This document shows positions 28,866-41,859 of a stretch of DNA of 64,000 nt, in pieces. Within the stretch, counting starts at the first letter, position 1; each line of letters begins with the position of its first letter. This stretch comes from Rubellicoccus peritrichatus. Its GTDB lineage: Bacteria; Verrucomicrobiota; Verrucomicrobiia; Opitutales; Cerasicoccaceae. The stretch covers positions 992,001 through 1,056,000 of the forward strand of contig NZ_CP136920.1 of assembly GCF_033100135.1 (NCBI RefSeq), in the 5' to 3' direction. The position numbers were made by a program, and so were the translations under genes. Below the pieces are notes generated by a model. It searched no databases. It saw nothing but the letters and a program-made list of their open reading frames with translations, and had not been told where the DNA came from.

Positions 28866-37522
<8,657 letters not shown>

Positions 37523-37605
37523 ATTTCAAAGTCAGTCTTTTACAGGACGGGAGTGGCAATCGCTACTTCCGTTTTTTTAGCCTTGGAGAGGTAAAGCATT
37601 TATCT

Positions 37606-37665
37606 TCTCGCTAAGACGCAAAGTTTTTTGATCATTAGTTAGGGCTTTGAGCCTCTGCGTGAGAC
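37606..37665. repeat. Short palindromic intergenic element, copy 1
   Basis: Arms TCTCGCTAAGACGCAAAG (37606-37623) and, at 37645-37664, a partly complementary CTTTGAGCCTCTGCGTGAGA. It resembles the larger elements at 41891 and 51972 in the words GACGCA/TGCGT and the terminal inverted layout. It lies between the hydrolase gene and the cassette array and has no coding sense. Confidence 0.5.
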
Positions 37666-37676
37666 TATTTTTATAC

Positions 37677-37747
37677 CCAAAACGTATATGACTGGTAACA
37701 CCTCAGAGCGTAGCGGAGAGATGCTTACCAGATCATACTGGTTCTAA
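37677..37747 (-). repeat. attC-like recombination site, distal end of array
   Basis: Read on the minus strand, TTAGAAC (37747-37741) starts 6 bp after the ORF stop. It is followed by an imperfect hairpin with outer arms GTATGA/TCATATAC and inner arms CTGGTAAGCATCTC/GAGGTGTTACCAG, ending in GTTTTGG (37683-37677). The AAC...GTT frame and the bulged palindrome fit an attC site, although both core sites depart from consensus. Confidence 0.6.
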
Positions 37748-37753
37748 TTTATT

Positions 37754-38188
37754 TTAGCCTCCTCCAAATATCTCACGAAATTGATCTTCTTCAAAAACAA
37801 CGTGAATCCCATAAGATTCATACATGCTTTTCTTTCCAGCCATGAAGTCCCAACGCTTTTCATCCCACTCGTCATTGATTGCAAACATAACTCCTGGTCG
37901 ACAGAAATCCAAAGGTTGCATCGCCTCCTCAATCGCCAAATCTAAATTTTCCTCATCCTCTAAATCACACTCATCAATGCCATATTCATAGCATCTCAGC
38001 TTTTGTTCTATAATTGGAACAAACTCTTGAATCCTATTCAAAATGCTTTCGATGAAGACTTCATCTTCTTTAGAGATTTCGCGGCAGTCTTCTATCACAG
38101 TGACAGTGACTTCAGCATCCTCAAAAAGCTCCGATTCAAACGAGACTTTCGTTTCTAGATCTTGATATTTATTCTTAATCCAATCCAT
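37754..38188 (-). CDS. Hypothetical acidic protein, cassette ORF 5
   Basis: This 144-residue protein is rich in Glu and Asp (for example CDLEDEENLDLAIEEAM) and has no signal peptide or membrane helix. I do not recognise a family. The ATG lies 2 bp after an attC-like site and the stop lies 6 bp before the next one, the tight packing of an integron cassette. Base composition is AT-rich compared with the hydrolase gene upstream. It is probably a soluble cytoplasmic protein. Confidence 0.65.
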   Translation of the reverse strand: MDWIKNKYQDLETKVSFESELFEDAEVTVTVIEDCREISKEDEVFIESILNRIQEFVPIIEQKLRCYEYGIDECDLEDEENLDLAIEEAMQPLDFCRPGVMFAINDEWDEKRWDFMAGKKSMYESYGIHVVFEEDQFREIFGGG

Positions 38189-38190
38189 TT

Positions 38191-38258
38191 TCAGAACGTG
38201 GAAGTGTCACGACGCATGAGGCGCAGCCTCCGGAGTTGTGACGACTGACTTGTTAGAT
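38191..38258 (-). repeat. attC-like recombination site
   Basis: On the minus strand: core ATCTAAC (38258-38252, fits RYYYAAC), AAGTCAGTC, an inner palindrome GTCAC/GTGAC around GAGGC-TGC-GCCTC, and end core GTTCTGA (38197-38191). It is 68 bp long and shares long stretches (CTAACAAGTC, GTCACAACTCCGG, GTTCTGAA) with the site at 39202. Confidence 0.82.
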
Positions 38259-38596
38259 TTTTTATTTCTAATTTCTTTAAATAACTTTTCTCCAGCATAG
38301 ACCATCAGAGGAATCCCAAGCATCCATCCGGATGGGTATCTAATAATCCAAATAGCTCCTAGCAAAAGCATAGAGATTAAAAGCCATTTCTTTTTATATC
38401 CCTTTCCTCCATCACAGACAAATCCTAATATCATCAGACCAAAGAATCCCTGGAATAATCCACCCATAATTCCATATAAAGAAGATACGACCTCCTTTGA
38501 GCTCTCAGAATTCGCAATTCCATTCATTTTCACCTCGATAGTCAGAATCGGGAAGAGCAATAAGAGGAGCCCAATAGATGCGAATACTTTCTTCAT
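38207..38596 (-). CDS. Hypothetical small membrane protein, cassette ORF 4
   Basis: This 129-residue protein has hydrophobic segments at about residues 4-22, 35-62 and 70-95, then a basic tail. No family is recognised. The ATG lies 4 bp after an attC-like site. Its last residues (from about SNKSVVTTPEAAPHAS) are encoded inside the next attC-like site, where the TGA falls, so the array element supplies the C-terminus. Its location in the array marks it as a mobile cassette gene. Confidence 0.65.
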   Translation of the reverse strand: MKKVFASIGLLLLLFPILTIEVKMNGIANSESSKEVVSSLYGIMGGLFQGFFGLMILGFVCDGGKGYKKKWLLISMLLLGAIWIIRYPSGWMLGIPLMVYAGEKLFKEIRNKKSNKSVVTTPEAAPHAS

Positions 38597-38600
38597 TTTT

Positions 38601-38642
38601 ACCTAACGTTGAAGCTGGGGTCACTAAACGCCAACGTAAGCG
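38601..38642 (-). repeat. Short attC-like site
   Basis: On the minus strand a small palindrome ACGTTG...CAACGT ends in the core GTTAGGT (38607-38601, fits GTTRRRY). At 42 bp it is shorter than usual, and the left core (CGCTTAC) is degenerate, so it is probably a decayed or minimal attC. It separates two ORFs exactly. Confidence 0.6.
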
Positions 38643-39113
38643 TCACTTGTGCTGACTGGTTCGATTTTCTAAGTTTTCTAAATATGCTTCGATGACAATA
38701 AAATGTCCACCATAGGTGTACGTCTCTTTGCTTACTTCATGATTTCTTTTGGCTTCAAAGCTTAATTCCATAACCCATCCAGTGGTTACTGTGGATAATT
38801 TATGAGCCTCACCTTCTCGGCATGCTTTCAATAGACCATTCATGAATAAAACATCTATGCCATTTATCCCATATACTTTCTTTTTCCATTCGTCAACTGG
38901 TGCAAATGGATCTTCATCAGGTTGCGTATATACGCTCACAATCTCCTCAGGGTAGTTAAGTATGATAACACCTTTCTGTGCTTCATAACCCATAAGCTGA
39001 GACCACGATATTTTTACCTCGTCGACAGTTGTATCCAAAAAGTCCCATGACAATTCCTCTGCCCAAATGACGTTTGGAAGTAAGAAAACTATAAGGGCGA
39101 TTCGATTTTTCAT
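38643..39113 (-). CDS. Hypothetical exported protein, cassette ORF 3
   Basis: From the ATG at 39113 this is 156 residues with a signal peptide (residues 1-18, ending VIWAEE). The mature part has no recognised family; it contains tryptophan-rich phrases such as ELSWDFLDTTVDEVKISWSQ. An in-frame ATG at 39191, 11 bp after the attC-like site, would add 26 residues ahead of the signal peptide; the signal peptide argues for 39113. The product is probably periplasmic. Confidence 0.62.
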   Translation of the reverse strand: MKNRIALIVFLLPNVIWAEELSWDFLDTTVDEVKISWSQLMGYEAQKGVIILNYPEEIVSVYTQPDEDPFAPVDEWKKKVYGINGIDVLFMNGLLKACREGEAHKLSTVTTGWVMELSFEAKRNHEVSKETYTYGGHFIVIEAYLENLENRTSQHK

Positions 39114-39201
39114 AATATTAGCTAATAAAACTACTGTTGAGTCATAATCGCACTTCTTCATCTCTGATGATGCTAGCCTATCTTTATTCATCTTTTTATC
39201 T

Positions 39202-39269
39202 TCAGAACGTTATAGCTGTCACATAGAGGTAGCGCAGCTACCGGAGTTGTGACCAGCGACTTGTTAGGC
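39202..39269 (-). repeat. attC-like recombination site
   Basis: On the minus strand: core GCCTAAC (39269-39263, perfect RYYYAAC), AAGTCGCTG, palindrome GTCACA/TGTGAC around GGTAGC-TGC-GCTACC, then GTTCTGA (39208-39202). It is 68 bp, the same length as the site at 38191 and closely similar to it. It begins 8 bp after the stop of the upstream ORF. Confidence 0.85.
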
Positions 39270-39277
39270 ATTCATTT

Positions 39278-39670
39278 CTATTTTAGCCTATTTAGTTTAC
39301 CCTTCGTTTTGTAGATGTTCTTGTAGTCCCACTGAATAGTCCTTGATTTCTTTAACCAACGTTTTAGATCTTTCACAATTATCTCTTCAACTGAAGTATA
39401 AATAATGGAAGCATCCTTAAACTTTCCAGTTCCTCGTTTCAGTTGTGTTTCCTCAAAGTCGGCTCCACTCCAGAACATAAGTCTGATACCAGCTTTCAAT
39501 CGACTATAGCCCACCGTCGGATTTTCATCTAGAAACCAAACTGGATGACGATGCCATATTTTGCTTTCTGCCTCAGTTAGATAACCGTCGATTATTGACG
39601 AGAGGAGTTCGCAAATTTCTTGATCCCCTTCACACTGAGATTGGTTAAACGTTTTTATGTCTGGATGCAT
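39278..39670 (-). CDS. DUF1801-like protein, cassette ORF 2
   Basis: This 130-residue soluble protein has text typical of the DUF1801/YdhG-like family: ESKIWHRHPVWFLDENPTVGY, then RLMFWSGADF and a C-terminal VEEIIVKDLKRWLKKS. The function of this family is not established. The ATG lies 19 bp after the core GTTAGGC of one attC-like site and the stop lies 8 bp before the core GCCTAAC of the next. It is the only cassette ORF here with a family I recognise. Confidence 0.72.
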   Translation of the reverse strand: MHPDIKTFNQSQCEGDQEICELLSSIIDGYLTEAESKIWHRHPVWFLDENPTVGYSRLKAGIRLMFWSGADFEETQLKRGTGKFKDASIIYTSVEEIIVKDLKRWLKKSRTIQWDYKNIYKTKGKLNRLK

Positions 39671-39689
39671 TGAAATAAGCCCTTTCTCT

Positions 39690-39776
39690 GCCTAACAAGT
39701 TATTAGCGCGTTTTGATTCCCAGGTGTGATGCTTTAAAATTTGTGTGAATAAAACCTATATTGTAATGTGACGCTA
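39690..39776 (-). repeat. attC-like site with one degenerate end
   Basis: On the minus strand the right core is GTTAGGC (39696-39690, perfect GTTRRRY) preceded by TAATAACTT. The left core is poor; the best candidate is GCGTCAC overlapping the upstream ORF's TAG. The space between is AT-rich. Placement between two ORFs supports the call. Confidence 0.55.
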
Positions 39777-40184
39777 TTCATTGTCTCTATCGATCGGCAC
39801 CAACGTGATTTGAAGCTCAGATGGGTCACTCTCTCCGTATTCGATTGTTCTAGTTTTGTAACCATTCGCACCGACCTGTATTTTGAATCGTCTAACGAAG
39901 ACTACGGATAATCGCACTTCTCCTTCTCCCAGAATTGTCAGTGTGTGCTTTGGTTTAATTTCATCAAAAGAATACATCGGCTCTACACCGATGAACGCTT
40001 CCTTTAATTTCTTTCCTTCTTTGTTTTTGATAATCAGTTGAATATCTCGAAGTGTCAGATCTTCAATTTCCCATTCAAGGTTCGACTTCGAAGACCACAT
40101 GAAAAAAGCTGTGATACCTAACACTAGAATAAGGATGCTGGATGTCGCCGAAGTCGTATCTGAAAGTGCTTTTCCTATCTTCAT
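39774..40184 (-). CDS. Hypothetical single-helix membrane protein, cassette ORF 1
   Basis: This 136-residue protein has one N-terminal hydrophobic helix (about residues 13-31) and a mainly beta-type extracytoplasmic part with phrases such as GEGEVRLSVVFVRRFKIQVG. No family is recognised. The ATG lies 7 bp after the core GTTGAGC of an attC-like site. It is the first cassette in reading order. Confidence 0.65.
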   Translation of the reverse strand: MKIGKALSDTTSATSSILILVLGITAFFMWSSKSNLEWEIEDLTLRDIQLIIKNKEGKKLKEAFIGVEPMYSFDEIKPKHTLTILGEGEVRLSVVFVRRFKIQVGANGYKTRTIEYGESDPSELQITLVPIDRDNE

Positions 40185-40191
40185 TTTTTCT

Positions 40192-40284
40192 GCTCAACAG
40201 TAGTTTTGGATGACGAAATCGTTGTTTAACGAATTTTCAGTATCAGATACTGAATGCTTATTCATTGCAGCAATATTGTTAGAC
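40192..40284 (-). repeat. attC-like recombination site, proximal end of array
   Basis: On the minus strand: core GTCTAAC (40284-40278, perfect RYYYAAC), AATATTGCTG, an internal palindrome TTCAGTATC/GATACTGAA, and end core GTTGAGC (40198-40192, perfect GTTRRRY). It is 93 bp, within the known attC size range. Upstream of it a stop codon (TAG) lies 5 bp before the left core, ending a 31-codon open frame without a start. Confidence 0.75.
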
Positions 40285-40719
40285 ATTGGCTACGATAAAC
40301 CTTCAGGCACACCGTAGACGAACGCTTGCTTGAAACAGGTCTGAACTATAAATGCCGAACTGGAGCGGCGAACAAAATCAGAATGCTAAGCGAGTCTTTT
40401 AGCGCACTTTGAGGCATTCGTTCCTATCAAACGGAAGCACGATCGCCTTGGATTAAGCCAGTAGAAGAGCGGATCTGCTCTCGTTTTCGTCAGTTCTAAA
40501 TTTCTTAAGACACTTAAATTCCTGATATAGAGAACTTTAAAGTTCGAAAGACTGTGTAAATGCCATTAAGAATCAATATTCTGCTTCATTTTGCTGATTT
40601 GATCGCTGATGAACTCGATTGTCCGACTTGTCTGCGTTCAAACGCACCGAATGGAGCAATTTTCAGCGAGTATCGACAAAAGCCTTGGCAACAGCTCTTA
40701 CAAAACTAGGAGTCTCTGT
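40285..40719. other. Intergenic region between cassette array and DUF481 gene
   Basis: No gene is supported in these 435 bp. On the minus strand a 31-codon frame without a start (ends FKQAFVYGVPEGLS) stops 5 bp before the attC-like site and may be the remnant of a lost cassette. A small hairpin AGAGC/GCTCT (40466-40481) and a perfect 14-bp palindrome GAACTTTAAAGTTC (40532-40545) lie upstream of the DUF481 gene and could be regulatory. No integrase gene or attI-like site was found. Confidence 0.5.
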
Positions 40720-41859
40720 ATGCTACTTGCCAAGCTCCGTAATCCTCTGACTGCAGTTTTCACTCTGCTTTTAGTTCTTTTGGCAAATGCGATCAAGGCC
40801 ACAGGTCCAGAAGTGGATTTCGGGGCAACGACGACTCCCGTCGCACCGATGCCGAGCTGGAAACCGTCACCGGAAATCGCGGACGATGATGACTGGATCG
40901 AGCTGACCTCTGGAGAATGGCTCAAAGGTGAAATCAAATACATGTATGACGAGGAGCTGGTTTTCGACAGTGATAAGCTGGGTGACTTGAGCATCGACTG
41001 GGACGACATCAAACAGATTAAGTCGCCGCGAAAGATGAGTTTTCGGCTAAACAACCGGACCACGGTCACCGGGCATGTCCATATGGAGGAAAACGGCGAA
41101 CTGGAAATCAAGGGTGTCGACGGAGAGATTTTGGCGGATGACGTAGTGTCGATGGTACCCGAGGAAAAGGGTCGCTTCAAGAATTGGACGATCTCGATCA
41201 GCATCGGGGCAGATTTTCAAACCGGTAACACGGATGAAACATCCTATAGCGCGAGCGCAAAGTTCAACCGACGCACCGCGCTGACCCGTTTCAATCTATC
41301 CTACCTTGGCAATTACAGCAAAAACGACGGGCAAGTCACAACGAGCAACCAGCGGGCCAACAGCTACTTCGACTACTTCGTCGATAAGCGCCTCTTCATT
41401 CGGCCCATCTTCGCTGAATATTATCGTGACCGCTTTCAGAATATCAACTTTCAGGGAACGCTGGGCAGTGGTATTGGTTATCAGCTCTACAAGAGTTCGA
41501 ATGTTGAGTGGGACATCGTTGCAGGCCCAGCCTATCAAGTGACACGGTTCGACACGGTTGTCGCAGGTAGCAAAAAGACGGTCCAAACCCCGGCAGGCCT
41601 CTTTGTGACGACTGTAAATTATGATATTACGGACGATCTGACCTACGATGGGAACTACCAGATCATTTTTACCAGCAAGAACTCAGGCCTGATCTCCAAC
41701 CATTTTGTCTCTACCCTAAGCTACGAGATCAACGATCTATTCGACATCAATACCTCATTGATCTGGGATCGCGTCCAGAACCCAACGGAAAAGGCAGACG
41801 GCACATTCCCCAAGAAGGATGACTTTAATCTGATCTTCGGGCTGGGTTTCAGTTATTAG
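40720..41859 (+). CDS. DUF481 outer-membrane-type protein
   Basis: This 379-residue exported protein has a signal peptide (1-27), a small beta domain (about 50-140) with GEWLKGEIKYMYDEELVFDS and a second similar strand set, and a DUF481 beta-barrel domain (about 155-379) with SIGADFQTGNTDETSYSA and a C-terminal F at FGLGFSY, as seen in salt-induced outer membrane proteins. The ATG at 40720 has AGGAG 8 bp upstream; the ATG at 40609 starts a longer frame but would bury the signal peptide. Its role is not known. Confidence 0.8.
   Translation: MLLAKLRNPLTAVFTLLLVLLANAIKATGPEVDFGATTTPVAPMPSWKPSPEIADDDDWIELTSGEWLKGEIKYMYDEELVFDSDKLGDLSIDWDDIKQIKSPRKMSFRLNNRTTVTGHVHMEENGELEIKGVDGEILADDVVSMVPEEKGRFKNWTISISIGADFQTGNTDETSYSASAKFNRRTALTRFNLSYLGNYSKNDGQVTTSNQRANSYFDYFVDKRLFIRPIFAEYYRDRFQNINFQGTLGSGIGYQLYKSSNVEWDIVAGPAYQVTRFDTVVAGSKKTVQTPAGLFVTTVNYDITDDLTYDGNYQIIFTSKNSGLISNHFVSTLSYEINDLFDINTSLIWDRVQNPTEKADGTFPKKDDFNLIFGLGFSY

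Follow-up and report, generated by a model that had tools for sequence, protein, structure and literature searches.

A stretch of 64,000 nucleotides from the chromosome of Rubellicoccus peritrichatus (genome bases 992001-1056000, referred to as the window) very probably carries a CALIN (cluster of attC sites lacking integron-integrases), an array of integron cassettes, each an open reading frame (ORF) followed by an attC hairpin, flanked by the genes for a glycoside hydrolase and a DUF481 outer-membrane protein and lacking an integrase. The array, with its four attC sites, lies on the minus strand within 1.6 kb, at positions 37677-39269 of the window, and the host genome is a single contig of 5.80 Mb that is 97.5% complete. 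The label of CALIN, given in the original prediction, holds: the array has at least two attC sites on the same strand (three strong and one weaker), small ORFs in the intervals, and a host genome that encodes no integron integrase (IntI). The AT-richness claimed for the island was likewise found, with 39.1% G+C compared to 49.2% in the rest of the window.

The attC sites of the window

A BLAST search of the genome with the site at 39202-39269 returned, besides the site at 38191, one locus at 3.478 Mb and another at 4.460 Mb. The covariance model used to score the sites, R1, was built from 11 sites of the same genome, none of them from the window. MAFFT and RNAalifold gave no structure on the full-length sites; therefore, the loops were trimmed before alignment, and the structure was named by hand as the AAC/GTT pairs, a 5-nt spacer, an L stem of eight pairs, and one unpaired base at L'' position 4, the bulge (column 16) being placed by hand on the 11 sites. 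The trimmed sequences were a modelling aid only, and all R1 searches were performed on natural DNA. Standard pairs fill 96.7% of the pair cells of the model, compared to 68.1% when the partners are shuffled; covariation is 0.779 compared to 0.177 in the shuffled case, and pairing falls to 30-41% when the partners are slid by 1-3 columns. One of the training sites (3.478 Mb) is closely related to two sites of the window, B and D, so R1 is tested more independently by the other two, A and C.

With default filters, R1 finds exactly four matches in the window up to E = 5, all of them on the minus strand and at ORF boundaries, and the same four are the top scorers when the filters are turned off. 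Scoring with an attC covariance model had been proposed as a check on the array, and these are the four that stand among the six attC sites originally predicted. The two strongest are site B (38191-38258, minus strand; ATCTAAC-AAGTC-AGT[C]GTCAC...GTGACACT-TCCAC-GTTCTGA; 41.5 bits, E 5e-10) and site D (39202-39269, minus strand; GCCTAAC-AAGTC-GCT[G]GTCAC...GTGACAGC-TATAAC-GTTCTGA; 37.8 bits, E 6e-9). Both are 68 bp long and share arms (36 nt at 86%), as had been noticed from the sequence, and the bottom strand of site B presents the canonical T-N6-G extrahelical bases. R1 also matched the sites that had been described as ending in GTTAGGT and as terminal. The first is site C (38601-38665, minus strand; ATCGAAC-CAGTC...TCAAC-GTTAGGT; 22.6 bits, E 3e-4), with intact R boxes and spacers. 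The second is site A (37677-37747, minus strand; TTAGAAC-CAGTA-TGA[T]CTGGT...ACCAGTCA-TATAC-GTTTTGG), with an 8/8 L stem and the extrahelical base at L'' position 4, which has 20.6 bits and E 0.0012 with default filters; with the filters off, it is matched at 37680-37747 with 13.8 bits and E 0.14, the next match of the window having 10.9 bits.

A model-free scan, which required nothing but the AAC and GTT cores, a spacer of 5 nt, and a stem interrupted by a single bulge, recovers the sites at 37677, 38191, and 39202 (A, B, and D) with perfect 8/8 stems and a score of 16/16 each; its three further matches in the window score lower and have the bulge at other positions. Folding of the bottom strand, as had been suggested, gives z = -2.1 for site A but z = -0.03 for site C, whose L stem has decayed (L-stem score 0). 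In A, B, and D, the single bulge is at L'' position 4 (4 or 5 in D), and the spacers have 5 to 6 nt. The equivalent of the bottom-strand T12'', a top-strand A at spacer position 2, is present in 4/4 sites, while the bottom-strand extrahelical base is G in site B, C in site D, and A in site A.

The AAC (R'') and GTT (R') cores are present in all four sites. The full boxes are another matter, as R'' fits RYYYAAC only in B and D, and the true sites end in GTTCTGA, GTTCTGA, GTTAGGT, and GTTTTGG instead of the GTTRRRY-type boxes first described. The AAC/GTT core required for strand exchange is kept although the full RYYYAAC/GTTRRRY boxes fail. The two predicted sites that fail are exactly those chosen mainly on the GTTRRRY consensus: the one near 39690 (GTTAGGC) shows no fold (z = +1.23) and no R1 match, and the one at 40195-40287 (GTCTAAC/GTTGAGC) contains an inner palindrome but neither L''/L' pairing nor an R1 match. 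We rejected both as attC. The claimed right core at 39690 matches, in inverted orientation, the R'' end of site D (TGCCTAACAAGT, 39689-39700, plus strand; 12 nt, 100%), of which it looks like a copy; it shows no structure and is an incomplete attC.

Palindromes are common after genes, and a terminator-like match at 37727-37742 overlaps site A, so we considered that the hairpins could be ordinary terminators or repetitive extragenic palindromic (REP)-like sequences of a small operon unrelated to integrons. We find this scarcely credible. The bulge at L'' position 4, the 5-nt spacers, and the AAC/GTT cores recur at 12 loci and in other genera, with covariation between genera; all four matches of the window are at ORF boundaries on the coding strand; such sites adjoin IntI in relatives; and R1 found no sites in four genomes of the same family (G001, G002, G006, and G008). 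A search of the window against Rfam, which is not known to us to include an attC family, returned nothing.

Cassette genes and the empty locus of a relative

The five small minus-strand ORFs of the original prediction were confirmed, and four of them (c1 to c4) have the layout of cassettes, with ORF and attC on the same strand. The ORF c1 (144 amino acids, 37754-38188) begins 2 bp past site B and stops 6 bp short of site A; it has no Pfam, NCBIfam, or PADLOC match, no relative among 373 genomes of the order, and none in the plasmid collection. The next one, c2 (129 amino acids, 38207-38596), begins 4 bp past site C, has its stop inside site B, and is membrane-protein-like, judging from its hydrophobic segments, with no significant family match. 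The stop of c3 (182 amino acids, 38643-39191) is inside site C, and its start is 10 bp past site D, or 85 bp if the ATG at 39116 is used; this signal-peptide-like start (MKNRIALIVFLLPNVIWA, 157 amino acids) appears from the sequence to be the likelier true one. It has no family match and no relative among the 373 genomes. Two adjacent pieces of the 5' end of c3 (39127-39164) recur in or beside the c5 gene, one forming an inverted repeat of 15 nt with 40193-40207, without mismatch, and the other a direct repeat (19/21) with 39908-39928.

The stop codon of c4 (130 amino acids, 39278-39670) is 8 bp short of site D, and its product belongs to DUF1801 (PF08818; Pfam E 4.3e-8, 33.9 bits, cut-off 27.2). 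The fifth ORF, c5 (136 amino acids, 39774-40184), has one N-terminal hydrophobic segment and is a probable cassette with no recognisable attC on either side. Its single relative in the order (49% identity, genome G094) has no R1-type attC within 20 kb. ORF ends near the cores, as claimed, are found for c1, c2, c3, and the stop of c4; no recognisable attC bounds c4 or c5 upstream. None of the five matches known anti-phage defence models (0/5).

The distribution of c4 provides evidence of movement. Proteins with 82-89% amino acid identity are found in four genomes from two other families of the order (G235, G339, G251, and G036), while c4 is absent from nine genomes of its own family, which is the behaviour of a horizontally transferred gene. 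In G235 (L187), this type of attC (25.5 bits) lies directly after the stop codon of the homologue, and G036 has four attC matches on the same strand 4-9 kb upstream of c4. No relative of c4 was found in the plasmid or viral collections.

The comparison of relatives suggested with the original prediction found, in another member of the family, a syntenic locus without the cassettes, and not the same five genes in fixed order. In G002 (the metagenome-assembled genome (MAG) of L073), the glycoside hydrolase gene (71% amino acid identity) is separated by 105 bp from the DUF481 gene (about 50%), beyond which lies the gene for pyrophosphate-dependent phosphofructokinase (PFP), with no cassettes; the distance from the glycoside hydrolase to DUF481 is 3197 bp here. 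The DNA inferred to be absent from G002 (L204/L174/L073) corresponds approximately to 37580-40670. This result is one comparison, as the other family members do not have the glycoside hydrolase at this place.

Among the genes around the island, the adjoining PFP is 80% identical to that of MAG Co_bin.226 and 73% to that of Cerasicoccus, followed by Opitutales/Puniceicoccaceae, which places the host in Verrucomicrobiota and probably in the family of Cerasicoccus; the DUF481 gene, used as a probe of the named genomes, gave no match. Positions 30719-37522 encode a multidomain protein of 2267 amino acids, with LPMO_10, several CBM2 and Calx-beta domains, and GH9 in the N-terminal part submitted to Pfam; the C-terminal part, outside that scan, looks chitinase-like (GH18) by eye. 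From c5 to the DUF481 promoter (40290-40670), a stretch of about 380 bp within the DNA missing from G002 has no ORF and no recognised relative.

Several observations weigh against reading the region as a CALIN. The array is partly eroded, site C being without its L stem and site A being weak with the filters off. No attC can be recognised at the upstream edge of c4 or on either side of c5. The mobility of c1, c2, and c3 would follow from their anatomy only. Finally, G002 belongs to a different genus, and its comparison does not by itself separate an insertion here from a deletion there.

Integrase, dispersed sites, and the origin of the array

No IntI is encoded in the whole genome, where the best match to the TIGR02249 profile has 82.7 bits against a cut-off of 265. 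The best matches are split, with profile positions 178-237 unaligned, as in XerC/XerD. The original prediction reported no intI gene in the window, and 20 IntI proteins used as queries indeed found no match there, nor any IntI remnant in the window, including 40290-40720, or beside the other two main arrays. The genome is thus without intI, the first part of a complete integron (intI and attI); no separate search for attI was made. Broken tyrosine recombinase genes, other than IntI, with internal stops or short frames, lie at genome positions 4059085-4061276, 4091734-4092169, and 1469720-1469923. The fragment at 1469720, a tyrosine recombinase remnant that matches IntI only at the catalytic end (31-46% over 41-83 amino acids), was rejected as intI.

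In relatives, by contrast to this genome, TIGR02249 is over its cut-off in 24 of 104 genomes, including three of the sister genus g4 in the same family (G003, G007, and G009); the fourth g4 genome, G005, has IntI fragments only. We read these proteins as true IntI because that of G007 is 46% identical to IntI1 and IntI3. R1-type attC sites are located within 1-3 kb of IntI in several genomes of the order (L039, L042, L043, L038, and L040), which ties this type of attC to IntI.

The whole-genome search for more copies of the site, also suggested at the outset, was productive. With R1 at 20 bits or more, applied to the genome and then to 20-kb stretches and the window, we count about 32 attC-like sites at 12 loci, with less certainty for those that stand alone and score lowest (21-24 bits). 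The loci are at 0.094, 0.293, 1.030 (this array, four sites), 2.001 (five), 2.849, 2.917, 3.310, 3.478 (two), 4.167, 4.456-4.461 (nine), 4.944, and 5.425-5.428 Mb. The nine sites at 4456577-4461266 (L025 16577 to L026 1266) form a second CALIN, larger and better kept; after its site s7 comes additional hairpin DNA that resembles a 93-nt attC-like site at 2001530-2001622 (L069). The attC-like sites at 3478222-3478841 (L021 18223-18842) and ten other loci are single or in small clusters.

Within the family, G003, G005, G007, and G009 have 11-18 R1 matches each and G004 has three, while the four genomes mentioned above have none. In Cerasicoccus maritimus, a named type strain, two R1 matches share a strand of contig13 (L074 949-1538), with 29.2 and 21.3 bits; the PFP gene is about 4.5 kb away, and the pair may represent a CALIN or an integron.

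The substrate of IntI is attC in the form of its folded bottom strand, which the enzyme binds and then cuts at the conserved AAC (PMC11641012; PMC2727003). The cut lies between the C and the A of 5'-AAC-3' (the GTT of R'), and the cassette leaves as a circle or joins another attC or a secondary chromosomal target. In the window, the four sites would supply this strand, including the extrahelical base and the unpaired spacers. The delivering enzyme would have been an IntI that the lineage has since lost, or one acting from a mobile element. Since about 32 attC-like sites are present at 12 separate loci of one chromosome, the insertion was presumably at many secondary sites and not at one attI platform. 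The cassettes would now be fixed unless an incoming IntI mobilised them in trans.

The reported origins of CALINs are off-target insertion by an IntI encoded elsewhere, loss of intI, or rearrangement (PMC8618304). CALINs have often been proposed to be degraded integrons (PMC9024848), and the array could be what remains of one ancestral integron that decayed in place, with intI and attI deleted; one site is eroded, and the 430 bp of unassigned DNA at the upstream end (40290-40720) could once have held intI. We regard this as unlikely: the 20 IntI queries match nothing in those 430 bp or elsewhere in the window, 12 separate attC loci would require the decay of many integrons, and the locus is empty in G002. 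The loss of intI elsewhere in the genome is, on the other hand, fully compatible with a CALIN filled by insertion. The 12 dispersed loci, the empty relative, and the absence of any trace of intI together point to off-target delivery by an enzyme that was then lost, or to a visiting IntI; these two are jointly the most likely origin and are not separable from each other here.

XerC/XerD-like and other tyrosine recombinases are encoded in the genome, and one of them might have moved the cassettes. That would be very improbable, as the folding of attC, the T-N6-N extrahelical pair, and the AAC/GTT cores are features of IntI, the same type of attC adjoins IntI in relatives, and no recombinase of this genome has the IntI-specific region (profile positions 178-237).

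The attC type of the order and its relation to known systems

Published attC sites have a bottom-strand extrahelical G in L'' with a T six to eight bases away, and this G has been called absolutely conserved (PMC2727003; PMC3053210). In the genome and the order, 61 of the 67 sites scored have a bulge compatible with L'' position 4, and 52 of 53 sites order-wide keep the T12'' equivalent (alignment A3). The extrahelical base, however, is seldom the bottom-strand G: on the top strand, where C is the canonical case, we counted G 28, A 17, T 12, and C 4. As these identities were first read from sites chosen by the model, the count was repeated model-free with gammaproteobacterial controls. Among sites whose stem is perfect and whose bulge can be placed unambiguously, the top strand has C in 2 of 20 here compared to 7 of 9 controls (Fisher P = 7e-4); the control set is small, nine distinct sites that were also filtered for paired R boxes and had a lower stem cut-off than the order set, and full independence does not hold for sites of related arrays. 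Relaxation extends to the R boxes, with RYYYAAC fitting 11 and GTTRRRY 6 of 53 order-wide sites with intact cores, and the outer R positions pairing no better than at chance (1.15 of 4, compared to 1.40 when shuffled).

We tentatively propose, at a little less than an even chance, that the attC of this order has an extrahelical base fixed in its position and in its distance from T12'' but free in identity (on the bottom strand mostly C, T, or A, and rarely G), that its R boxes are reduced to AAC/GTT, that it is recognised by the resident IntI lineage, and that its cassettes are scattered at many chromosomal loci, also in genomes from which IntI has been lost. Replacing the extrahelical G with A, T, or C lowers integration by just 1.2- to 2.7-fold (PMC2727003), so the non-G sites of the order may well be functional, by analogy with those substitutions. 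If the proposal is true, the relaxed base is a natural test of the attC features that IntI needs, the laboratory substitutions having already hinted that the identity of the G matters little.

The array is thus ordinary in kind and unusual in its dispersal. CALINs are already known, and what specialists may wish to follow up is how widely the sites are dispersed in the absence of IntI and how relaxed this type of attC is. Cassettes with no assigned role persist at a dozen loci of an integrase-free bacterium from a phylum, Verrucomicrobiota, with little integron literature in the literature searched. Within the family, one genus has IntI, this one has only CALINs, and some relatives have neither, which allows cassette delivery, loss of intI, and secondary insertion to be dated.

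Compared with the CALINs of the IntegronFinder papers (PMC9024848), this array has the same composition of at least two same-strand attC sites and small accessory ORFs with no neighbouring intI, here absent genome-wide; it differs in being one of about 12 dispersed attC loci in an intI-free genome and in its relaxed R boxes and extrahelical G. In Xanthomonas, where intI has been lost repeatedly (PMC12444791), CALINs are likewise dispersed over the chromosome as clusters off the platform that outlast the lineage-wise loss of intI, but they belong to another phylum, and no platform locus was identified in our genome. Non-classical insertion at attG (Loot et al. 2024), as summarised in the papers that cite it (PMC11641012; PMC12444791), predicts many scattered insertions per genome, as found here, although the insertion point at our locus was not resolved to an attG sequence. 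The chromosomal integrons of the same family and order (G003, G007, and G009; L039 and L042) share the attC architecture and the model and differ from this genome in carrying IntI.

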